The notes under the pieces were generated by a model. That model saw only the letters and a program-made list of their open reading frames with translations. It was not told the DNA's origin and searched no databases. Positions 15,615-30,506 of a DNA stretch of 52,275 bases are shown here, in pieces (position 1 is the stretch's first letter; each line of letters starts with the position of its first letter). This DNA is from Gammaproteobacteria bacterium bin55 (GTDB lineage Bacteria; Pseudomonadota; Gammaproteobacteria; Pseudomonadales; Azotimanducaceae), in contig MPMU01000005.1 of assembly GCA_002238665.1 (NCBI GenBank), positions 1-52,275 of the forward strand, written 5' to 3'. Position numbers and translations under genes: made by a program.

Positions 15615-15803
15615 CTACTTGTCCTTGTAAACTATATTTTCAGGTTGCAGGATAGCCTTAACGAAGTTCTCCATCTTCTCTTTGACCGTATCACCAGAGA
15701 CGTCTATATGAAACTCCGCCTCTAACTCAGCTTTGCTCAGTTGATAGGTTGACACACGGAGTTCTACAAAGGGTAATTCTTTGCGGTACTTTCGTTCTTT
15801 TAT
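15615..15803 (-). other. 62-codon open frame downstream of the methyltransferase, no canonical start (ATA); possibly a small degraded gene
   Basis: Frame reads KERKYRKELPFVELRVSTYQLSKAELEAEFHIDVSGDTVKEKMENFVKAILQPENIVYKDK*; not in the supplied ORF track; internal GTG at 15753-15755. Confidence 0.35.
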
Positions 15804-17074
15804 GCGTCAGGATTCACGCCATCAGGTAGTTTCGGTAGAGCTTTCATCCCAGCAAGTCTTGAAATCAGATATTCTGTACGATTACCTTTCAGTGAATTGC
15901 AGTAACTACACAGGAGCTGTAAATTCTCGATGTGATTAGTGCCGCCCTTGGATGTAGGGGTAATGTGGTCCACTTCTAAATTTTGCATTTTAAAATGTTC
16001 TTCGCACCCATGACAGTACCCCCCTTGTTCACCGTAAAGGATTTTCTTATTTTTTAGGGAGTTATAAGGTGGTAGCTTGCCTAGGTCTGTACGTAGTGGA
16101 ATGTCTACTCGGTCAGTAACATCTACAAATATATCTGGTTGGTCGGCTTTGATTCGTTCGTTAACTAGCCGTACTGCGATTGGACTAATATCTATACCTA
16201 CCCAGTTTCTTCCGAGTCTATCCGCTGCAACTAAGGTGGTTGCACACCCGCAGAAAGGATCTAGGACCACGTCACCTTCGTTTGAAGATGCTTTGATAAT
16301 TCTCTCGAGTAGCGCTAAAGGCTTCTGGGTAGGGTATCCCACGCGCTCTCGCTGGTTCGTCAGTACCGGAACATCTGACCACCAATCCTCAGGAATTTTG
16401 CCGTCGCCGAATTGTGCTCTCACGTCCTCAATACTGCGTTTGTCCTGGGTATTCACTGAAGGGGAAATCACACTACGAGTGCCCTCTATGCGCCCGCGTC
16501 GAGCCAATGTCTCAGCGCTGTAAGCCGTGCGGACAGCGTCTGCATTGAACGCCTCTCCCCCAAAAAACAGAATCGTATCGTGTTTGCGCGGAAACCATCG
16601 CTTCGTATTGGACGGGCCAGTGTAGCACCACACAATCTCATTTCGAAATTCCCTCCTACCAAACACTGCATCCATCAATAGCTTTAGATAGTGACTCATC
16701 GTTGGATCACAATGCAAGTAAATCGAGCCGTTCTCTTTTAGTAATCGGTGCATTTCAAGTAGCCGAATCGCCATATAAATGAGATAAGACTTATCCGAAT
16801 TATTTTGTGCCGCTTGAATCACCCGCCATAGAGCCGCTTGTTGCGGTTTCTTTTGGAGCAAATCTAGCCACTTAACGTTTAAATCTGATAATGACCATGT
16901 ATCCTTAAACTCCGAACCCGCTGCTTTGCTACCAATTGGCGCGGCGTAGTTGGCGTTGGAGTTGAAAGGGGGGTCTAGGTAGATAAGGTCCACTGAATCC
17001 GAATTCATTCCCCGCATGATTTCAAGGTTATCAGCTGTCCAAATCGTTCGATTCTTCCAGTTTGTTTCTGCCAT
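15800..17074 (-). CDS. Beta-class DNA methyltransferase fused to a C-terminal HNH nuclease domain
   Basis: DLIYLDPPFNSNANY (motif IV), DVVLDPFCGCATTLVAADRLGRNWVGIDIS (motif I); C-terminal CHGCEEHFKMQNLEVDHITPTSKGGTNHIENLQLLCSYCNSLKGNR (HNH). Confidence 0.9.
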   Translation of the reverse strand: MAETNWKNRTIWTADNLEIMRGMNSDSVDLIYLDPPFNSNANYAAPIGSKAAGSEFKDTWSLSDLNVKWLDLLQKKPQQAALWRVIQAAQNNSDKSYLIYMAIRLLEMHRLLKENGSIYLHCDPTMSHYLKLLMDAVFGRREFRNEIVWCYTGPSNTKRWFPRKHDTILFFGGEAFNADAVRTAYSAETLARRGRIEGTRSVISPSVNTQDKRSIEDVRAQFGDGKIPEDWWSDVPVLTNQRERVGYPTQKPLALLERIIKASSNEGDVVLDPFCGCATTLVAADRLGRNWVGIDISPIAVRLVNERIKADQPDIFVDVTDRVDIPLRTDLGKLPPYNSLKNKKILYGEQGGYCHGCEEHFKMQNLEVDHITPTSKGGTNHIENLQLLCSYCNSLKGNRTEYLISRLAGMKALPKLPDGVNPDA

Positions 17075-18039
17075 TACACTACTCTCTTCGCTACTTGATT
17101 GTCAGCAATCATGTCAGCATACTTCATTCGTTTACCTTGCATATTGTTCGAGAATGTCTTGAAGATGTCGAGCGTATCTGCTTTGGTTATACCGAGTTGC
17201 AAACTCGTCTACGTAGCGGTTTAAATGCTTAGCGCTAAAGAGATGGAACTTACTGTGATAACCGCGTTCGAGAATCGACCAAAATGAATCAATCCTGTAC
17301 GTTTGACCTTGTCCGTTCACATACTCAGCGACCCAATGCTTAACTTTACAGTGCTCTCTCTGTTCAATACCTTGATAAGCTCTACCTTCGACCGCATAGA
17401 CGGTAAAACCTGTAACGGTATTCTCATTTACAGAACTTTTTAAGGTTCTTTCATCCGAACAACTAACTGCTTTAGCACTGACTTGAATGATGTTTCTATC
17501 CTTCGCGCCCACTACCTCAGAATTAGCAACAGCAGTCTTAGCTGCACTTAGCTTTTTAAGTGCGTGCTTGTTCGATCCTTTACAACCTATGGAAGTTTCA
17601 TCGATTTCTATCGTCCCAAGAAACAGATTGTTACCTGTCATCATATCTTCTCTTAGTCTACGTCCTAAGTGCCACGCTGATTTCAGAGTGATATCAAGCT
17701 CTCGGTGCAATTTCATGCTCGATACCCCTTTCAGGTTTATAAATACCAAGTACACAGCAATTGCCCAGATCTGAAAGTTCAATTTAGATGCTTCCATTAA
17801 AGTACCAATCTTGACGCTGAATAGTTTTATACAACCTTACTCTATACAACGATAAGGCATGGTTTTATGTGTGCGTTGATTTTCACGGGGATAGAGCCAC
17901 AATGAGGACAAGCAGGTATGTCTCCCCAGCGTTTATTGTCAAACCATGCTTCAGCGGTTTCGGAGTTGGGAAATATTTAGTAGAGCGATTTGAAGATGAT
18001 TCCTTTTCGGTAATACTTACCGGGAGCGTTTTTAGACAT
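17074..18039 (-). pseudogene. IS1595 family (ISXO2-like) transposase pseudogene with two internal stops and at least two frameshifts
   Basis: Manual frame correction: MSKNAPGKYYRKGIIFKSLY*IFPNSETAEAWFDNKRWGDIPACPHCGSIPVKINAHIKP / MPYRCIE*GCIKLFSVKIGTLMEASKLNF...ILEQYA / GKRMKYADMIADNQVAKRVV*. The supplied ORF 17132..17797 is only the central part. Confidence 0.85.
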
Positions 18040-18208: not shown

Positions 18209-18715
18209 ATGGAAAGTTCAGATCAATATCGTCGTAAGTTCGAGATTGAGGTCGTCAGGGAATCACTGCATTTTTCTGCGGCACACTTCACCATATTCAG
18301 CTCGGTGAGTCGAGAGAATCTGCATGGCCACAACTTCAGAGTCCAGGCTGTCATCGAAGCGAAAGTCGGAGAAGATGGACTGGTTTTTGACTATTCAATC
18401 ATCAAGGATGTTCTACAGAATCACTGCGATGCACTCGACGAAAAACTCTTGCTTCCAGAGAACTCTCCCTATCTAGAAATCACTAAATCTGGCGGGTATG
18501 TTCAGGTCAAATTCGATCACGAGGTATTGCCTTTCTTGCCACGCGATGTGAAGATCCTCCCAGTCAGAAATATCACTGTGGAAGAACTCTCTGAATGGTT
18601 TATTAGCCAACTTCAAGAAGATAGCGCGTATAAATCTCTCCCCATAGATCGACTTTCCATTCGAGTAGCTTCGGGCTCTGGACAGTGGGGAGTCAGTACG
18701 ATAGAACACTCATGA
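18209..18715 (+). CDS. 6-pyruvoyltetrahydropterin synthase/QueD family protein lacking the active-site Cys (PTPS-III-like motif)
   Basis: FSAAHFTIFSSVSRENLHGHNFRV Zn-ligand His pattern; Glu but no Cys before HGH. Confidence 0.82.
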   Translation: MESSDQYRRKFEIEVVRESLHFSAAHFTIFSSVSRENLHGHNFRVQAVIEAKVGEDGLVFDYSIIKDVLQNHCDALDEKLLLPENSPYLEITKSGGYVQVKFDHEVLPFLPRDVKILPVRNITVEELSEWFISQLQEDSAYKSLPIDRLSIRVASGSGQWGVSTIEHS

Positions 18716-19407
18716 AGACTCTGATCATTACCGGTGCAAGTTCAGGCATCGGCTTAGCGACGGCCAAACTATTCTTGGAAGATGATTTCCAGGTTGTCAA
18801 TATCTCCCGTCGACTCTGTCCATTGGATGAGGTGCACAGCATTCAGTGTGACTTGTCTCAGGAAGACTTCGTGTCGCAGCTTGAACCAGCACTTCAACCT
18901 CATCTTGAAAATAGCACGCGTCTCTCTCTAATTCACAATGCCGCGATGTATGTCAACGATTCGGCCGTGAATGCCGAAATCGACGTGCTTCGTAATGCCC
19001 TCCAAATAAACATTTCAGCACCTCATCTGCTAAATAAACTATGCATTCCTCACATGCAACCAGGATCCTGCATTCTTTATGTGGGTTCTACCTTGGGTGA
19101 GAAGGCAGTCTCAGGTTGTTTCACCTATGTGACGACTAAGCATGCACAAATCGGCATGATGAAAGCCTTGTGTCAGGACCTAGCAAACACACACATACAC
19201 ACCGCTAATATCTGTCCTGGATTCACTGATACTGAGATGCTTAGAGCACATGTGCCATCCGATCAATTGGACAACGTTGCCAAGTTATCAACAATGGGGC
19301 GACTTGTGGAACCCGAAGAAATCGCTCGGTGCCTTAAATTCGTCAGCGAAAATCCGTCGTTAAACGGAGCCGTAATCCACGCAAATCTAGGTCAGGTGGA
19401 GTCGTAA
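18712..19407 (+). CDS. Short-chain dehydrogenase/reductase
   Basis: KTLIITGASSGIGLATA, catalytic YVTTKHA, ICPGFTDTEM; start taken at ATG 18712, overlapping the PTPS stop. Confidence 0.88.
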   Translation: MKTLIITGASSGIGLATAKLFLEDDFQVVNISRRLCPLDEVHSIQCDLSQEDFVSQLEPALQPHLENSTRLSLIHNAAMYVNDSAVNAEIDVLRNALQINISAPHLLNKLCIPHMQPGSCILYVGSTLGEKAVSGCFTYVTTKHAQIGMMKALCQDLANTHIHTANICPGFTDTEMLRAHVPSDQLDNVAKLSTMGRLVEPEEIARCLKFVSENPSLNGAVIHANLGQVES

Positions 19408-19414
19408 TCGACTT

Positions 19415-19732
19415 TTATTGGGTCACGGACCTCGGCGTGGGCACGATATTCTGCACATTTATGCCGCCCTTTTGAAGGAGCTGACCTACTCGAGGCGCAA
19501 TTTCAGTTTTCCAACGTTCACTGTCATAGACGGCCGCATAGAGCGCTTCTCGTTCTGCATCAGAATTAAATCGTCTCATCCACACGTAGGTCTTCTCATC
19601 CTCACCGCGAAAACTGCCGGTGATGACCATGCCGAGTCCGACTTGATAAGGGATGATCACACTCTCCATGTACTCAATCCACTCATCCATCTTGCCGTCA
19701 ACGATTTGGTATTGTCTTAGTTCATAGAACAC
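19415..19732 (-). CDS. NIPSNAP family protein
   Basis: FYELRQYQIVDGKMDEWIEYMESVIIPYQ...YVWMRRFNSDAEREALYAAVY. Confidence 0.8.
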   Translation of the reverse strand: MFYELRQYQIVDGKMDEWIEYMESVIIPYQVGLGMVITGSFRGEDEKTYVWMRRFNSDAEREALYAAVYDSERWKTEIAPRVGQLLQKGGINVQNIVPTPRSVTQ

Positions 19733-19819
19733 GCATATTTCCTTAATTTCAGTTGTGTGAAGTTCATAGATTGTAGGAGACCGCTACAATGGAATCCTCA
19801 ATTTATTATCTAAGAATCG

Positions 19820-20644
19820 ATGACCGTTTTAGAACCTAAATACCGCCTCCGTCGTCAACGAGTATTCCTGCTATTAAGCGGTATCTTTCTTGGGACCTTG
19901 GGAATGTTGAACATTCTCGGTATTACACGCTTCATTGATCTCTCTTTCGAGGTGTTCGGACTGCAAATCCCCATGACACTTGCAGTAGGTGTACTACCCT
20001 ATCCGATCACCTTCTTCTGCACCGATCTGATTAGTGAAATCTATGGGCGCAAACGAGCGACGGACATGGTGTGGGTAGGTCTGGTCGTGAATGTCTGGGT
20101 CATGATCTTTATCTGGTTAGGCGGCGCGTTACCCGGGTATGAATCTATAGATCCTAATACAGGAGAACTAGCACTGGATGCCGCAGGTAGACCACCACTG
20201 TTTTTTGAAGTTCAAACACTCGCACTGGGGTCGGTCACAGCGTCCATGATTGCATATCTGAGTGCACAATATTGCGACGTTCGACTTTTCCACTTCTGGA
20301 AGTGGTTAACCAAAGGTAAATATCTTTGGATACGAAACAATGGCTCTACTTTAATTAGTCAGCTGGTAGATACCACTGCGGTTATCCTGATCGCACATTT
20401 CTTGGCAAACGCACTTCCGATTGACGCCAATCAGAGCATTGCCAATCAATTAGTGGTGTTCATCGCCTCGGGTTATGTGTTCAAGTTGGTAGTCGCATTA
20501 GTAGACACTGGTCCAATTTATGCGGCAGTACATTTTTTACGTCCGTATCTCAATTTACAGCCAAATGAGGAAGTGGATCCTACGGATTTCTCCAGCGTTC
20601 ACTTGGTTGTAGAACAGTCCACGGACACACAAGAGGCGACATAG
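19820..20644 (+). CDS. yhhQ: Queuosine precursor transporter (YhhQ/VUT family)
   Basis: YPITFFCTDLISEIYGRKRA, multiple TM segments, VDTTAVILIAHF. Confidence 0.85.
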   Translation: MTVLEPKYRLRRQRVFLLLSGIFLGTLGMLNILGITRFIDLSFEVFGLQIPMTLAVGVLPYPITFFCTDLISEIYGRKRATDMVWVGLVVNVWVMIFIWLGGALPGYESIDPNTGELALDAAGRPPLFFEVQTLALGSVTASMIAYLSAQYCDVRLFHFWKWLTKGKYLWIRNNGSTLISQLVDTTAVILIAHFLANALPIDANQSIANQLVVFIASGYVFKLVVALVDTGPIYAAVHFLRPYLNLQPNEEVDPTDFSSVHLVVEQSTDTQEAT

Positions 20645-21762: not shown

Positions 21763-22755
21763 TTGCCATCGGATGTGGTAGTTGAGTCCTCGATCGAAAT
21801 AGATCACATTACCCATTTCTACAAAAAGAACCAAAATATCCTTGAAGATGTAAATCTTTCACTCGGCACTGGGTTATTTGGACTGCTAGGTGCAAACGGC
21901 GCAGGTAAATCGACGCTCATGCGAATCATCTGCACGCTCCTAGTTCCAAAGGAAGGGTCAGCCAGGGTATGTGGTTACGATGTCGTAAAAGACTGTAGGC
22001 AAGTTCGGGAGCTCATAGGCTACCTGCCACAGGAGTTCAGTGCATGGCGATTACATAGGGTAGAAGAGGTGCTAGACACGCTGGCACAGATTTCTGGTAT
22101 GACGAACAAGAAAATTCGGCGTGCTCGAGTTGCTGAAGTGCTTGAATCGGTAGGACTGGATGCTGTAGCAGATCGAAAAGTCAAAAAACTCTCTGGCGGC
22201 ATGGTGAGACGTCTCGGTGTCGCACAGGCATTGGTCCACGAACCACAAGTCCTTATAGTCGACGAGCCTACCGTGGGTCTTGATCCGGAAGAACGCATGC
22301 GTTTTCGCCAGTTAATGACCCAACTAGGCCGTGATCGCACGATCCTGCTCTCAACACACATCGTCGCCGATCTAGGGAGTGGTGTGAGTCAGATAGCGAT
22401 CCTTGATGACGGAAATATCTCATTTCAAGGTGAACCCACTGAACTGCTCAACCGCGCACAGGATTTTGTATATCGGATACCTTCTTCAGAGGAAGGCCTA
22501 TTGAGCGATGAGTTGGACTTCGAAATCGTTTCCCGAGAAGGATTCGATCAAGATGCGACTGTACGAGTGGTGGTGGATGATCCCGACGCGGTTCCTTCCA
22601 GTGCTGAAAAGGTGAATGACCCTAGCCTCGAAGAAGCCTACCTAGCGTTCATGGCGGCCCGAGGGAAATTATCGACCGCGCGTCAGATCGAAGAAGAACT
22701 AGATGCCAAAGCTAAGAAAAAGCAGGAACGCATGAAACTGAAGAAGCTGCGTTAG
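21763..22755 (+). CDS. ABC transporter ATP-binding protein (TTG start)
   Basis: LLGANGAGKSTLMRI (Walker A), KLSGGMVRRLGVAQAL (signature), VLIVDEPTVGLDP (Walker B), Lys-rich C-terminal tail. Confidence 0.95.
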   Translation: MPSDVVVESSIEIDHITHFYKKNQNILEDVNLSLGTGLFGLLGANGAGKSTLMRIICTLLVPKEGSARVCGYDVVKDCRQVRELIGYLPQEFSAWRLHRVEEVLDTLAQISGMTNKKIRRARVAEVLESVGLDAVADRKVKKLSGGMVRRLGVAQALVHEPQVLIVDEPTVGLDPEERMRFRQLMTQLGRDRTILLSTHIVADLGSGVSQIAILDDGNISFQGEPTELLNRAQDFVYRIPSSEEGLLSDELDFEIVSREGFDQDATVRVVVDDPDAVPSSAEKVNDPSLEEAYLAFMAARGKLSTARQIEEELDAKAKKKQERMKLKKLR

Positions 22756-22769
22756 GAGGAATCTCACTG

Positions 22770-25700
22770 ATGGACTACGCAGCACGCATCTGGGGAGTTT
22801 CCCTTTCGGAAATGCGATCCGCATCCCGATTAGCAAGAACCTGGTTGTTTGTCGTGATTGGCTTATTAATCACGGTCCCCGCCTACCTCGGTTCAGCGTT
22901 CAGCCACTATAACCTCGGCGCGTTTGAACCGTATCTCAGCATGGTATCCAATGTTCGCTACATTTTTGCGGCTCAGATTGGTGGATCACTTATTTTGGTG
23001 TATTCCATTGGCATCGTATTCCTTGCATTTGACATCCGGGTCAGAGACAAAAATGCGCGAATGCACGAAGTCCTGGAATCGCGACCAATTGACAATTTTG
23101 GATTTCTACTAGGCAGAACCCTGGGCATTACATTTATCGCGCTACTGCCGATATTGGTCACAATGTTTCTAGCGCTCATTATTGCGTTTGCCACTCAATT
23201 CAATGTAGCTTTCCAGGTCGCCATTCCTCAACCGCACTCGTTTTGGCAATTCATTCTCATAGATCTGGTTCCGAACATCTTTTTCTATGCCGCGTTCGTG
23301 GTTTTCCTTGCAATGGTGTTGAGATTTCGACTCTTGGTGATTATTTTTGGTATCGGATTTATGGTACTGCTGTTCTACGTTGCAGCTCTCATGCCTTACC
23401 AACTCTCCGATGTGCTCACATGGATGAGTGTGCAGGAATACCCATCCGATGTCAGACCATTCTTCACGAACACCCTCACCCTACTTGAACGACTTGCGAT
23501 CATCGTTTTTAGCCTGGGAATGCTTTATCTTGCTACATTAGCACATCACAGACATGACGGTTACGTACACGCCCGCGTAACTGCACTAGGTGTTGGTTTA
23601 GTTGTAGTTGGTTGCTTGGGTTTTTATGGGGTTTACCTCAATTCAGTAAACGAGGCAGACGATCGACTCGTTTGGACTAACGAGCATCTGAAAGTCGATC
23701 AGAGTTTTCCGAACACAAGCCTAGATGTGAAGGAACTAACCGGTTCAATTGATGTAAATCCCGGTTCAATTCTTCAAGCGCAATATTCGCTTAGCGTCGA
23801 GGTGATTGATACGAACGGGACCGAGGGCCTACTATTCTCCTTCAATCCAGCGATGGACATAGAGGAAATCAGGCTGGATGGATCTACGCTACAAGATTTT
23901 GAGTTTGAAAACGGCTTACTCGTTCTAAACCCCAAAACGTTCTACCCGATCGGTTCTAAACACGAAATTGAGCTAGTAGCGGAAGGAGTTCCAGATGAGC
24001 TATTTCAGTATCTAGATAGTGGCATCGACCTCTATGGCAATACAGCATTTACTGGCATCAATTTGCGGCTACTTGGGCAATTCAATTCAATTTTCACCTC
24101 AGATGTGGTGGCCCTCCCGCCTGATGCCGCTTGGTACCCGCAAGCTGGTCCCCACGTAAACCGCGATCAAATCACACGGAGACCAAGAGATTTCTTCACG
24201 GTTGATTTACAGATCAATCTACCTGAAGACTGGGTTGTAGCAGGTCCCCGAGAGCAGAACTCCAGTCTGTCTCAAGGGGGAGTAGCTTCCTATCGAATTA
24301 ATCCAAAGATACCTGTCCCGTCGTTGGCGCTTGTGGCTGACGAATTCCACCGAGTTGCCGCTGAAATTGAAGGCATCACATTTGAGTTGCTGTTTCATCC
24401 TAAACACACCAAAAATCTAGCAATCTTCGCAGATCTCAAAGATGAAATAGTCCGTGACATTGAAGAACGGCTGCGGACTGCCGCTCGATTTGGGCTAGAT
24501 TACCCTTTCTCTACATTGTCACTGGTGGAAGTTCCCGCCAATCTGAAGATTTTCGGTGGTGGTTGGCGTATGGATACGGTTCAATCGCAACCTGGCATCC
24601 TGTTCATGCGAGAACTGAATTTCCCTACTACAAGCTTCGTCAAGCAGACGAATTTTGAGAATCGCACCGAATGGGATGAGGAAACACAGAAAGAGTACAA
24701 GTTTGGTCTCTTGGAGAGCTTCCTACGGAACGACTTACTGGGTGGCAACATTTTTTTGGGATTTGTCCGAAATCTCTTTGTTTTTCAGACAGGAGCAACC
24801 GGTTCAGGTGCTGAAGCACTCGACTTTACCGTCGAAGCATTGGTAAATCAGCTTGTTGTTGGAGATTCAGGCTTCTTCTCTGCCTACATGATGGCTGATG
24901 CCAATCCTACTGGTCAAGGCACTTTCCTCAGCAGCAGTACACAGGCAACCTATACGGGTAGGCAGGCACCAACAGTGTCGACGTCAAGAGTCCGAGAAAT
25001 GGTGTTCAACACGAACTCGACTTGGGAATCAGCCATGGATTACCCACTCAATAAACTACCGTTTTCCGAAGACCCAGGGACCTCATTGAAGGTCCTTGAG
25101 ATGAAAGGTAACAAACTTGCGAGCGCCATTATCGATGGCTTGGGAAAAGAAGAAGCAGGTGAAATCGTTAGTCATTTGATCAAGCAACACCAAGGGACAA
25201 GCTACACGTATGACGATTTGAGACAGATATCTGCCGATCTGGAAATTCCTATCGATCAAGTCGTTGGTGATTGGCTCAACGATATCAAATTGCCAGGTTA
25301 CTTGGTCTCCTCAGGTTCAATAGTTCGGGTCTCCGATGATGCCAGCAACCAACCTCGATATCAAACTTCATTTCACCTACATAATGGTGAAGACGTTCCG
25401 GGTGTTGTAACGGCATGGTACACCACCGGTTCACAAGAAGTAAATTCACAGACAAACGCGATTACTATCCCGCCTGAATCATCGATACGGATTAATTTGA
25501 TTAGCCAGGATCCACTTACCGAAGTAGGTGTGCAACCTTATCTCTCACTTAATCGAGACTCAATTCCAGTCAGATTAGGTAGGAAAACGGACGATCAGTC
25601 CATAGAGCAAGTATCCGAAGGTCCACGACCACTTGTAGAATCAAGTAATTGGATGCCCCCAGAACAAACTGGAATCATCGTCGATGACCTAGATGAGGGA

Positions 25701-26258
25701 TTCTCTACAGATAATCCTGACTTAGACGTAATTCCTGAATGGGTACCAAACTTCGTCAAGGCATTTATCCCAAAACCGGATATTGATCAAAAACTACCAG
25801 TCCATCGCAGTGGAGCGATAGGATATGCGTGGGCTAGAGAGACTACGGAAGGCGCATTCGGAACTTATCGCCGAACCACTGCGAGAATCGACAGTGGTGG
25901 AACCGAATCGACAGCTGTTTATTGCTATTTCAAAACAGAAATTCCAATGCCGGGTACATGGAAGCTTGATTTCTATCTGCCGGAGGCAAATTTCAATAAA
26001 ACTGAAGCTATGAAACTTCGAAAAGCAATGGTTGGCGAATGGAGGGACACTGCTAATCAGGGGATCTACGGCATTACACTTCAATTCTTGGATCAAGAGC
26101 ACGAAATCGAATTCGATGCCTCCGTCGGTTCCCAGGGATGGAATCAACTAGGTGAGTTTGAACTACCTGTAGCACCCGTCACCGTGAGAATTTCAAACAA
26201 ATCTGACGGCGATACCCTCTTTGCGGATGCAATTCGCTGGACACCACCAGCTTCTTGA
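22770..26258 (+). CDS. ABC-2 type permease fused to a degenerate M1-peptidase-like domain and a golvesin-like C-terminal domain (1162 aa)
   Basis: N-terminal ~290 aa with about 7 hydrophobic segments; M1-like region with EALVNQLVVG in place of HExxHxW; C-terminal GTYRRTTARIDSGGTESTAVYCYFKTEIPMPGTWKLDFYLPEA...DQEHEIEFDASVGSQGWNQLGEFELPVAPVTVRISNKSDGDTLFADAIRWTPP. Confidence 0.75.
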   Translation: MDYAARIWGVSLSEMRSASRLARTWLFVVIGLLITVPAYLGSAFSHYNLGAFEPYLSMVSNVRYIFAAQIGGSLILVYSIGIVFLAFDIRVRDKNARMHEVLESRPIDNFGFLLGRTLGITFIALLPILVTMFLALIIAFATQFNVAFQVAIPQPHSFWQFILIDLVPNIFFYAAFVVFLAMVLRFRLLVIIFGIGFMVLLFYVAALMPYQLSDVLTWMSVQEYPSDVRPFFTNTLTLLERLAIIVFSLGMLYLATLAHHRHDGYVHARVTALGVGLVVVGCLGFYGVYLNSVNEADDRLVWTNEHLKVDQSFPNTSLDVKELTGSIDVNPGSILQAQYSLSVEVIDTNGTEGLLFSFNPAMDIEEIRLDGSTLQDFEFENGLLVLNPKTFYPIGSKHEIELVAEGVPDELFQYLDSGIDLYGNTAFTGINLRLLGQFNSIFTSDVVALPPDAAWYPQAGPHVNRDQITRRPRDFFTVDLQINLPEDWVVAGPREQNSSLSQGGVASYRINPKIPVPSLALVADEFHRVAAEIEGITFELLFHPKHTKNLAIFADLKDEIVRDIEERLRTAARFGLDYPFSTLSLVEVPANLKIFGGGWRMDTVQSQPGILFMRELNFPTTSFVKQTNFENRTEWDEETQKEYKFGLLESFLRNDLLGGNIFLGFVRNLFVFQTGATGSGAEALDFTVEALVNQLVVGDSGFFSAYMMADANPTGQGTFLSSSTQATYTGRQAPTVSTSRVREMVFNTNSTWESAMDYPLNKLPFSEDPGTSLKVLEMKGNKLASAIIDGLGKEEAGEIVSHLIKQHQGTSYTYDDLRQISADLEIPIDQVVGDWLNDIKLPGYLVSSGSIVRVSDDASNQPRYQTSFHLHNGEDVPGVVTAWYTTGSQEVNSQTNAITIPPESSIRINLISQDPLTEVGVQPYLSLNRDSIPVRLGRKTDDQSIEQVSEGPRPLVESSNWMPPEQTGIIVDDLDEGFSTDNPDLDVIPEWVPNFVKAFIPKPDIDQKLPVHRSGAIGYAWARETTEGAFGTYRRTTARIDSGGTESTAVYCYFKTEIPMPGTWKLDFYLPEANFNKTEAMKLRKAMVGEWRDTANQGIYGITLQFLDQEHEIEFDASVGSQGWNQLGEFELPVAPVTVRISNKSDGDTLFADAIRWTPPAS

Positions 26259-26282: not shown

Positions 26283-27380
26283 TTGATATTTATGTATAAA
26301 TCTGTAGTCGGCTTGATCCGATACCTAGCATGTCTGGCGACCATTGGCTTATTGGTCAGCTGTTCTCAACCCACTCCTTCCATCAATGTTGAATTTCGGA
26401 TCCCGGTGGAAGTCGCCGAGATCAACAAAGGTACGGTTGAAAGTCTTATCACGGCAACTGGCATTCTTCGAACCGCGGAAGTGGCCAATGTGTCCGTGGA
26501 GGTACCTGGATATATCTACCTCGCGAGAGATGAGAACGGCAATCGTCTAAGAGAAGGCGATACGGTAACGGTCGGCCAGCAGATCGCGCAGGTAACAGGT
26601 GAAGATGCTAGATTGAACGCAAGGATCGAATCGACCAGACTAGCGTTGAATACCGCGAAAGCAGAACTTGATCGAAGACAGGATTTGTACGACAAGGGCT
26701 TAATTGCGGAAACAGAAGTTCGTCAGCAGGAAGTAAGTTACGAAGACGCTCTGTTCAGCTATGACCAGAGTCGGAACCAGGCGGGTAAGCAAAACATCAC
26801 GTCTCCCATTGAAGGCATCATTCTCAAGCTGGCCCGAGATACGCAGGACTTGCCAATCGCAGATGGCATGCTAGTGGCACCGGGATTTGAACTCGCTCGT
26901 ATCGGCCCCGTCGAGGAGCTAATCGCCGACGTAAATCTCATTGGACCTGAACTAGGCAAGATCAAAGTGGGTCAATCGGCACGAATCCGGCACTATGCCT
27001 ATCGCGACAAAATGCACGCTGGCGAGGTCACACATTTAGCACCCACACTTGATCCCATCAATCACACGTTTAAGGCAGAAATCCTCGTTTCTAACCCAGA
27101 CGGTCTGCTACTACCCGGTATGTACGTAGAAACTTTCGTAATCCTTGATCAGCGTACGGACGTGATCGTGGTACCTCGGTCGTCGATAACCAGCCGATCA
27201 GGAAACAGCATCGTTTTCGTACTGGATGGACAACGGACTAGACAGCAGCAAGTTCAGCTTGGACTCGGAGATGACTATCAGGTTCAAGTTCTAGAAGGCG
27301 TCGATGTAGGTGACAGGGTGGTCGTCAACGGCTTGGAAACCTTAACCGACGGTACGCGAGTGCGAGTTCTAGGTAGCTAA
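26283..27380 (+). CDS. RND efflux periplasmic adaptor (membrane fusion) lipoprotein
   Basis: Lipobox LLVSC; EVPGYIYLARDENGNRLREGDTV, coiled coil, ITSPIEGIIL, beta-barrel region, ERVVVNGLETL-type ending. Confidence 0.9.
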   Translation: MIFMYKSVVGLIRYLACLATIGLLVSCSQPTPSINVEFRIPVEVAEINKGTVESLITATGILRTAEVANVSVEVPGYIYLARDENGNRLREGDTVTVGQQIAQVTGEDARLNARIESTRLALNTAKAELDRRQDLYDKGLIAETEVRQQEVSYEDALFSYDQSRNQAGKQNITSPIEGIILKLARDTQDLPIADGMLVAPGFELARIGPVEELIADVNLIGPELGKIKVGQSARIRHYAYRDKMHAGEVTHLAPTLDPINHTFKAEILVSNPDGLLLPGMYVETFVILDQRTDVIVVPRSSITSRSGNSIVFVLDGQRTRQQQVQLGLGDDYQVQVLEGVDVGDRVVVNGLETLTDGTRVRVLGS

Positions 27381-30300
27381 GTGAACTTTTTTGAGTCGCT
27401 CGCACAGTTAGCGACACGGCGACCCATTGCAGTTAGCGTCGTTGCCATTACGGTTACGATCATTGGCTATCTTGCTTGGCAACAACGGCCAATCGATTTA
27501 CTTCCTGACCTCCAAAGTCCCTCAGTCGTAGTTTCCCTACGGGCAGGTGATCGACCACCTGCGGAAATGGAGAGACTTTTTGGTGAAAACTTAGAGCAAC
27601 AAATCTTCACGGTCAAAGACGTTCGCAACATTGAGCAGGTTGCTCGAACTGGACGAATCATCGCGACAGTCACATTTGATTGGGCTGCGGATCTGGATAT
27701 TGGTCTAATCGACATTCAGAAAGCGGTGGGTAGTCTAGAAAGCGATCCGAACGTCGACGAAATCGTGGTACGAAGATTTGACCCACGACAAGATCCGATA
27801 TTGGTCTATGGCATGGTGGCCCCTTCTGGGGCACCTAATCTGATTGAACTTCGCCAACTCGCCAAGCGCCAACTCGCAAGCGCACTCGAACAGCTACCTG
27901 GTGTGGCAGAAGTCCAAGTCACGGGTGGCAGACTCAAGGAAATACGTGTTCAGGTAGACCGTTACCAGCTGGATGCGTTCAATATTCCACTGTCACTTCT
28001 TGAGAACCAACTCAACAGCGAAAATCAAGACATTACAGCAGGAACGGTCGAAGAGAATGATCGCGTACTCCAGTTACGCAGTCGATCAAGGTTCAACGAT
28101 GCACAGGATATTCGCGATCTGGTAGTGCGCTACGTCAATACCGAAGGTGGGATATTCAAACCGATTCGTGTGAAAGACTTCGCAGAAGTAATCGAAGCTG
28201 AGCAGGAAGTAGATCATGTGGTTCTTGTAGACGGTATTGAAGGTGTCGGATTATCGATTTACAAGGAAGCTGGAGCCAATACAGTCGAAGTGTCTAGAAC
28301 GCTCACGGAGACCATCGAAAAACTCTCAGTCGATTTACCCAATATTGAACTCAAACAGATTACAGATAACGCAGTACTGGTAGTCGATGCTTTGGACGAT
28401 TTACAAATCGCCGCCGTGATCGGCATATTCTTGGCCGTAGTCATACTGGCGATCTTCTTACGGTCAGCAGGTGCAACGCTCATCGTCACAGCAGCGGTTC
28501 CCGTTTCTATCTGCAGTACGTTGTTCTTCATGCATTTAGGCGACTACAGTCTAAATATTGTGACGCTGGGTGGTCTTGCTCTCGGTGCAGGTATGTTGGT
28601 GGATAACGCAATAGTCGTCGTTGAGTCAATGTATCGAAATGTCAGTCAAGGTCATGCTCCAGAAATCGCCGCAGCAAAAGGTACCAGCCAAGTAGCAGGT
28701 GCAATCACCGCTAGCACATTGACCACCTGTGTCGTGTTTTTACCTGTATTTTTTGTGCAGGGACTTGCAGCGCGTCTGATCGAGGGAATTGCATTCACAG
28801 TTGTACTGTCACTGCTCGCCTCTCTCGTAGTTGCCATTTTCCTGATTCCGGCATTGGGCAAGTGGTTCCTACCGAAAGAAACTTCTGACTTAAAACACAA
28901 TCGCGTCGAGAATCCTGGAGCGATTCGTACGGGTGTAGAGAACTTCACGAGGCTACTGCTCCGAGCGCCAAGTATCGTCGTTGGAACAGCCATCTTGATT
29001 ACCGGTACAGCAATCTACTTCCTTGTTCAGTTAGGCACGGAATTGCTTCCACCTGCAGACCCTAAGCAGTTTTCACTTCGTCTAGTGGGTACAGCGGGAC
29101 AGAGAGTGGAATCTACTGTAAACCAAGTCAAAGGAATCGAGGACATCATTCGCCAAAGTGCTCCAGATCACATCGCGGCTTCTCTGTCTGAGATAGGCCG
29201 CATTCCCGATGACGATCGCATCATTCGACAGGAGATGACTGAAGAGAATACAGCGCGCGTAAACGTTCGCGTAGCCGAAGGAGGTCCTACCGGTCGTCAT
29301 GTCGCAAGCCAGCTACAGGATGTCGTTGAGGAACTACCCAACGCGGAGATAGAGTGGGAAATTAACAAGAGCGCTTTGGCTAGTGCGCTCGGAACCTCTG
29401 GAGTACCGATATTGATTGAGGTGGCTGGACAGGAGCTACCCGACATACGTCGAGGTGTATCGCTCATACAGGAAGAACTAGAAAAACTGCCTCAGATTTG
29501 GAATATTCGTAATTCGTTCGAAGGTGGTCCTCCTGAATTGCATATTGAGCTTGATCATGCGTATGCGGATGCCTTACAGGTTAATGTTCAATCAGTTTCC
29601 CGGGTTCTCGAATCGAGTATTGATGGACGGATAGCGACACGTATGTCTGTCGGCGACGAAGAATATCCAATCACGATTCGTATGGACACTCCTCGCAAAG
29701 AGAATCTAGGTAACATAAAGTTCCGAACTGGCCAAGGGGTGGAAGTTGCTATTGGCGAGGTAGCGGAATTTAAAGAAGTAGAAGGCGCAAGAGAGGTACA
29801 TCGGCGCAACCAACGTCGCACAGGTCAGATCACCGCGCAAGTGACGGACGGCTATGAATTACCACAAGCCATTGCCGCAGTGAACGAAGTCCTAGTCAAT
29901 ACGCCTATTCCTGCAGGTCTCCAAGCATCTTTGCGTGGAGAGGAAGAGGAAAGAGTCAAGACTTTCAGTGAACTTCGCCTTGCCGGAATTCTTGCCATAC
30001 TGCTTGTCCTTATGGTACTCGCAGGATCGTTCGAATCTGTGCTTCAACCTATCACGGTGCTTGCTTCTATTCCGCTGGCATTGGTTGGTGTGTCGATTGC
30101 AATGGTCCCTATGGGAGATCCGGTAGGCGTCATGGCCATGCTAGGTTTGATTGTGTTATCAGGTGTTGCAGTCAACGACGCGGTGCTACTAATCTCCACC
30201 TCAAAACAGCTGATCCGAGATGGTGTCGAACGTCGAGAAGCATTGGCTCAAGCGGTTGGCATTCGTCTCCGTCCTGTAACCATGACTACACTCACGACTG

Positions 30301-30506
30301 CTTTGGCGTTGACTCCACTGCTCTTTGGTGGGGGAGAAGGTGCAGTACTACGACAACCGATGGCAATGACCATTATCGGTGGGATTATTACGTCAACCAT
30401 AGGATCGCTTATGGTGCTTCCTAGTCTCTACTTACTTCTAGACAACCTCTCGAGAATGGTTAGAGGGGTCAAGAGTACGCCTGACCTGGTTGAACAACCA
30501 AGTTAG
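27381..30506 (+). CDS. RND family efflux permease (GTG start)
   Basis: 1041 aa; FFESLAQLATRRPIAVSVV...RPIDLLPDLQSPSVVV; TM4 GGLALGAGMLVDNAIVVVESMYRN; MVLAGSFESVLQPITVLASIPLALVG. Confidence 0.95.
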   Translation: MNFFESLAQLATRRPIAVSVVAITVTIIGYLAWQQRPIDLLPDLQSPSVVVSLRAGDRPPAEMERLFGENLEQQIFTVKDVRNIEQVARTGRIIATVTFDWAADLDIGLIDIQKAVGSLESDPNVDEIVVRRFDPRQDPILVYGMVAPSGAPNLIELRQLAKRQLASALEQLPGVAEVQVTGGRLKEIRVQVDRYQLDAFNIPLSLLENQLNSENQDITAGTVEENDRVLQLRSRSRFNDAQDIRDLVVRYVNTEGGIFKPIRVKDFAEVIEAEQEVDHVVLVDGIEGVGLSIYKEAGANTVEVSRTLTETIEKLSVDLPNIELKQITDNAVLVVDALDDLQIAAVIGIFLAVVILAIFLRSAGATLIVTAAVPVSICSTLFFMHLGDYSLNIVTLGGLALGAGMLVDNAIVVVESMYRNVSQGHAPEIAAAKGTSQVAGAITASTLTTCVVFLPVFFVQGLAARLIEGIAFTVVLSLLASLVVAIFLIPALGKWFLPKETSDLKHNRVENPGAIRTGVENFTRLLLRAPSIVVGTAILITGTAIYFLVQLGTELLPPADPKQFSLRLVGTAGQRVESTVNQVKGIEDIIRQSAPDHIAASLSEIGRIPDDDRIIRQEMTEENTARVNVRVAEGGPTGRHVASQLQDVVEELPNAEIEWEINKSALASALGTSGVPILIEVAGQELPDIRRGVSLIQEELEKLPQIWNIRNSFEGGPPELHIELDHAYADALQVNVQSVSRVLESSIDGRIATRMSVGDEEYPITIRMDTPRKENLGNIKFRTGQGVEVAIGEVAEFKEVEGAREVHRRNQRRTGQITAQVTDGYELPQAIAAVNEVLVNTPIPAGLQASLRGEEEERVKTFSELRLAGILAILLVLMVLAGSFESVLQPITVLASIPLALVGVSIAMVPMGDPVGVMAMLGLIVLSGVAVNDAVLLISTSKQLIRDGVERREALAQAVGIRLRPVTMTTLTTALALTPLLFGGGEGAVLRQPMAMTIIGGIITSTIGSLMVLPSLYLLLDNLSRMVRGVKSTPDLVEQPS

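Follow-up and report, generated by a model that had tools for sequence, protein, structure and literature searches.

The gene described here raises the question of what use an ABC permease may have for a peptidase-like domain that has lost its zinc site. We refer to it as P. It lies at positions 22770-26258 (+) of the window, the 52,275-nucleotide stretch of DNA that was analysed, and forms a single reading frame of 1162 codons with a Shine-Dalgarno-like AGGAGG upstream. A first-pass annotation had read its 1162-aa product (P0001) as an ABC-2 permease fused to an inactive M1 peptidase-like domain and a golvesin-like binding domain. That reading overlooked the main context: P belongs to a set of ABC and RND genes that includes an RND::ATPase chimera, and in some congeners it is massively duplicated around a single engine. 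The explanation that we favour, at a probability of about 0.45 for the whole, is that P, an ABC-2 export permease of half size, works with the upstream ATPase, and that interchangeable substrate-capturing permeases of this kind share one ABC engine and pass their substrate to an RND conduit.

Domains of the permease fusion

Because P0001 was only weakly matched in Pfam (an ABC-2 match, PF12698, with an E value of 0.0024), the earlier domain calls had to be checked by structure. No NCBIfam model matched P, a PDB search with the single sequence was uninformative, and a single-protein pattern scan of the genome contigs gave no matches for it; a profile scan of the contigs did recover it. The AlphaFold model of P0001, built with 44 sequences, reached a pLDDT of 87 and a pTM of 0.85, and consisted of an N-terminal helix (residues 3-19), seven long helices ending by residue 312, and then a large exported region. 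The seven helices in the membrane part (22770-23705, +) correspond to the single cluster of membrane segments that had been noted earlier, and together with the PF12698 match they uphold the ABC-2 call. The cytoplasmic TM2-TM3 loop (residues 84-119) was the best-conserved piece of this part. Both the membrane fold and the TM2-TM3 coupling loop of an ABC-2 export permease were thus recognised from the Pfam match, the model, conservation and homology, and the dedicated ATPase subunit of such a permease was found in the neighbouring gene, whose product has intact motifs. A periplasmic location of the ectodomain is consistent with seven membrane helices and an N terminus inside the cell.

The exported region at residues ~315-953 (23712-25628, +) has the M1 fold, as it matched M1 aminopeptidases in Foldseek with a probability of 1.00 and an E value of 1.8e-18 over about 680 alignment columns, confirming the M1-like call. 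However, the HExxH motif of catalytic family M1 was present at the aligned site in 0/134 family members, and the string occurred at other positions in 4/134. The loss of the zinc motif claimed for the single sequence is therefore not confined to the window's copy but belongs to the whole P family, and, judging from these sequences, the inactivation is probably ancestral.

The position assigned to the lost motif had to be changed. EALVNQLVVG (residues 689-698; 24834-24863) had been taken for a degenerate HELAHQWFG site. In global and local profile alignments, the HELAH of intact ABC-2/M1 fusions aligned to L663-G-F-V-R667 instead (LGFVR, 663-667; 24756-24770, +), whereas EALVNQ (689-694; 24834-24851, +) aligned on or beside the ETLAQY/NEGFA helix carrying the third zinc ligand in catalytic relatives. 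Profile support for this catalytic subdomain was moderate (hhalign probability 40-89%), and the AlphaFold model, with a helix at 661-669 followed by one at 681-696, agreed with the placement. The motif GGGWRMD (596-602; 24555-24575, +) does lie near the GxMEN position, as had been stated, but it sits a few residues ahead of that position and was rejected as a kept remnant of GxMEN. It is a near-invariant hallmark of the family, with G597 and W599 each found in 130/134 members.

The last domain, residues 955-1162 (25632-26255, +), bears out the proposed golvesin/xanthan lyase type. Pfam Golvesin_C was matched in 17/20 P family members (best 1.9e-9), so the HMM evidence comes from these members rather than from P0001, which was itself unmatched. 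When the 208 residues were modelled alone, the pLDDT was 86, and the top PDB match in Foldseek was the Paenibacillus xanthan lyase 6f2p, with CBM35/CBM6 carbohydrate-binding modules (CBMs) among the next. Structure prediction thus returned both the M1 fold and the golvesin-type fold. The domain has its fold and HMM family in common with the golvesin/xanthan lyase C-terminal domain (PF25275; 6f2p); unlike that domain, it is fused to a transporter, and its sugar binding is putative. Along with the golvesin/xanthan lyase C-terminal domain, the CBM6-CBM35-CBM36_like_2 lectins (PMC9166713) were named as closest known. A paper on the CBM84 xanthanase was rejected as a match, as it concerns a different module.

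P is a variant of the fusions of TC 3.A.1.145 (Myxococcus xanthus Q1D520; PMC3924187), in which an ABC-2 part is likewise followed by an exported M1 domain and the ATPase gene is adjacent. The P family profile matched catalytic ABC-2/M1 fusions with a probability of 99.2 and an E value of 1.9e-19, and residues 11-589 of P0001 aligned to 314-895 of a catalytic fusion, that is, to the second ABC-2 half and the M1 N-terminal domain. The M. xanthus protein has a double membrane part of 13 TMS (PMC3924187), which would fit 6 plus 7, whereas P has the second half only and must therefore pair up. P further differs in lacking HExxH, in its added golvesin-type domain and in its association with RND genes; among the catalytic relatives recovered, the site read HELAHQWW and no golvesin domain was matched. 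Such intact fusions (HELAHQWW...ETLAQY) occurred in members of the taxonomic family that lack P, three of them at L142:7836-11423, L143:6020-9583 and L144:1-3348, and in two further Gammaproteobacteria. The dead-M1 P and a catalytic fusion were together in 0/25 genomes of the family covered by both searches, a small sample dominated by one genus. The P family is a clear case of an exporter-linked peptidase converted into a probable binding head. Among openly licensed papers, nothing relevant was found on inactive M1 domains with ABC transporters, or on ABC-2/M1 fusions beyond PMC3924187.

The ABC-RND gene set and its chimera

Directly upstream of P lies the gene of its cognate nucleotide-binding subunit, the ABC ATPase A (21763-22755, +; Pfam ABC_tran 5.1e-29), in which Walker A, LSGGM, Walker B and the H-loop are present. 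Downstream follow a periplasmic adaptor (MFP; 26283-27380, +; TIGR01730 RND_mfp above cut-off), whose start, LVSC, is of lipoprotein type, and the RND pump R1 (27381-30506, +; ACR_tran 8.2e-193). The RND permease and the periplasmic adaptor of a tripartite efflux system are therefore both there; no outer-membrane factor was recognised among the neighbours examined. By profile, the adaptor and R1 are ordinary members of the HAE-type RND tripartite pumps. The order A-P-adaptor-R1 is also seen in other genera of the family, as well as in MAGs labelled Acidobacteria, Deltaproteobacteria and Bacteroides SM23_62. Such labels may be in error, but most of these distant loci cluster in the tree, which makes stray contamination of single bins unlikely. 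On the other side of A, genes for a PTPS-like protein, an SDR and a Vut_1-type transporter (18209-20644) mark a chromosomal slot that is conserved in the genus. At the edge of this slot (15800-17797), an ORF resembling a DNA methyltransferase, its C-terminal end HNH-like, was seen beside a transposase-like ORF, the translations being judged by eye.

Six genes, namely A, P, the adaptor, R1, R2 and T, make up the conserved set. R2 follows as a second RND gene in most operons found beyond the window's genus, whereas within that genus the set is divided between two loci and R2 sits at the separate one, once per genome tested; in the window's own genome this is L174:1556-6340 (contig C116). A further copy was located at L036:4182-8969. 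R2 had been considered a plain second RND pump, an idea that was dropped when Pfam revealed an ABC domain. In its ~1600 aa, the RND part spans residues 1-1032 and the ABC ATPase domain about 1302-1525. Walker A (GPNGAGKTT), LSGGM, Walker B (VDEPT) and STHV were intact in 8/8 aligned full-length copies. By our own reading of the alignment, rather than by a tool, an insertion of ~200 residues with membrane segments appears to interrupt the ATPase domain after its first strand (LEVxxLxKIYG). The nearest PDB relatives of the domain were ABCA4, ABCA7 and ABCA3, with NosF and LptB further down; the likeness to ABCA lipid transporters, NosF and LptB concerns the ATPase domain alone and is uninformative on substrate.

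Directly after R2, in 7/7 loci, comes T, a ~238-aa membrane protein that is small and ABC-2-like, with weak ABC-2 matches in 2/4 tested. Examples were noted at L174:838-1554, L036:3484-4185 and L177:10182-10901, with the motif RxLEIxYTVPGGCERxWxxKL.

The R2 chimera was present in 22/23 P-bearing and 0/35 P-less relatives (58 genomes), a co-occurrence that is inflated because 18 congeners are related and hence not independent. Outside the window's genus, four other genera agreed with it, and the exception was a single genome, G019. R2 was also found at full length in 7/7 further P-bearing genomes and in MAGs of other phyla. HAE-type pumps differ from this system in that here the RND pump is linked to an ABC-2 exporter and R2 has a C-terminal ABC ATPase domain. 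Tripartite ABC pumps (MacAB-TolC; Vibrio cholerae VarACDEF, PMC5595328) likewise combine an ABC exporter with a periplasmic adaptor but have no RND permease, as confirmed for Var; the Var pump was accordingly rejected as an ABC-RND precedent, being purely ABC (PMC5595328). No published description of the six-gene set or of an RND-ABC fusion was found among openly licensed papers.

Copy number of P and the single set of engine genes

To count P copies across genomes, the C-terminal domain was used as the search probe. Nine congeners carried 32, 27, 26, 25, 24, 21, 20, 18 and 13 copies, respectively. Among the remaining congeners, one had 5 copies and the rest 1-3, the window's own genome having 3. 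At ~3.5 kb each, 32 copies make up about 4% of a 2.6-Mb genome. The copies were both dispersed and in tandem arrays; in G002, eight lie upstream of the single ATPase and one more between the ATPase and the adaptor. The engine genes were not multiplied along with them. Each of the nine expanded genomes had one R2 chimera. A single close ATPase A (58-70% identity to the window's, with the next best at about 40% or less) was found in each of ten genomes tested, with nine congeners searched, and one close copy of R1 was likewise present in each of ten genomes.

Several of the expanded genomes appear to derive from sponges. The MAG bin prefixes COS, IRC, RHO and APA fit a demosponge survey covering Coscinoderma, Ircinia, Rhopaloeides and Aplysina (PMC8163846); we infer this link, and likewise the sponge origin of the SB bins. 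The expansion is not general among such bins, as G016, which was matched to a COS bin, has 3 copies of P.

Several neighbourhoods of P copies were recorded in passing. In the window's own genome, three consecutive proteins of ~615-627 aa, of which two or more are clearly similar, are encoded beside the second P copy (contig C112, L033:4277-10250); two had no Pfam match and the third had sub-threshold matches only. At L046, L047 and L048, P pairs are flanked by luciferase-like (LLM) genes and a gene for a thiamine-diphosphate enzyme, with a TonB-dependent receptor gene also at L048, a recurrent and catabolic-looking setting of orphan P copies. Genes for a Cu/Zn superoxide dismutase and a thioredoxin-like protein (L045:11099-11770 and L102:6771-7814) belong to clusters that recur beside orphan P in several loci.

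Whether so many permeases could run on one ATPase was judged from conservation. Helix 3-19 and loop 84-119, which we took as the elements expected to contact the ATPase, were the best-conserved pieces of the membrane part, and their consensus was near-identical in 86 unlinked and 41 ATPase-linked P. This agreement at the expected contacts supports a single ATPase serving many permeases. Group II ECF importers offer a parallel, in that their S-components share one energising module. As there, one energising module is apparently common to many dispersed membrane subunits; the resemblance is in logic only, since ECF systems are importers and their S-components are unrelated. Orphan P could, however, pair with other ATPases, since distant ones are present by the dozen in each genome. 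The other membrane parts were among the most variable of P, as variable as the head or more so. Looked for as a mark of substrate diversification, hypervariability of the head was not found among the paralogues, and the greater variation of the membrane part does not speak for a specialisation of heads for many ligands. It hints that part of the selectivity may reside in the membrane.

These data also bear on the possibility that two unrelated pumps are merely co-regulated, A and P being an ordinary ABC-2 exporter with a relic ectodomain, and the adaptor and RND pumps a separate multidrug-type efflux system. Each half is self-complete, and most P copies in the expanded genomes have no RND neighbour. 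We nevertheless hold this unlikely, given that the gene order is conserved across distant MAGs, that P and the R2 chimera co-occur almost perfectly even where the genes are unlinked, and that an ectodomain so strongly conserved is unlikely to be a relic.

Envelope defence is the other explanation that we regard as improbable without dismissing it. At the outer face of the inner membrane, P would bind toxic amphiphiles that come from neighbours or host (antimicrobial peptides, glycopeptides or others), for the ABC/RND machinery to expel, and the paralogues would track different toxins in dense communities. The expansions in apparently sponge-derived MAGs favour this reading, sponges being a setting of intense chemical conflict, and so do the dispersed gene copies and an RND pump and adaptor of efflux type. 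However, many P copies have orthologues in other species and so are old, which is unlike fast turnover, and the head is not hypervariable. Moreover, neither a sensor kinase nor a regulator was seen to recur in the neighbour clusters that were examined; the envelope-sensing role once suggested for P thus has no specific support either.

Proposed mechanism and its meaning

On the favoured reading of one engine shared by capturing permeases, an ATP-driven A2P2 complex would move an amphipathic substrate to the outer face of the inner membrane; we infer the direction, export, because of the ABC-2 fold. The zinc-free M1 domain, extended by the CBM-type domain, is the presumed substrate-binding head that would hold the substrate there. 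Substrate capture had been proposed in the first-pass annotation and is compatible with the evidence, although the motif evidence cited for it was misassigned. The CBM fold and the M1 ancestry prompt the guess that the substrate is glycan-, peptide- or lipid-linked. The adaptor and the RND pumps would then hand it on to an outer-membrane channel. Coupling of RND cycling to T or A would fall to the ATPase domain of R2, for which T may serve as membrane partner. Where congeners have 13-32 P but one A, R1 and R2, these P copies would act as interchangeable heads on a common engine, much like ECF S-components. A new, zinc-independent enzyme activity of the M1-like domain on exported cargo is very improbable: E587, P589, W599, P608, E615 and H546 are highly conserved near the former active site, but no known catalytic arrangement was recognised among them and they could equally be structural or line a binding pocket.

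We raise, tentatively, the possibility of a hitherto undescribed class of envelope exporter, in which ABC-2 and RND parts work as one machine, an RND pump is fused to an ABC ATPase, and one engine serves up to about 30 permeases whose dead-peptidase/CBM heads present different substrates. Should the parts indeed function as one hybrid machine, that machine would constitute a new class. ABC exporters run on ATP, whereas RND pumps draw on ion gradients. R2, near-exclusive to one ABC exporter, would be a test bed for asking whether both energy sources can serve one export path, and the 13-32 copies around one ATPase make a shared-engine exporter testable. For some apparently sponge-associated Gammaproteobacteria, the expansion of P is a lead on the use of up to about 4% of the genome.
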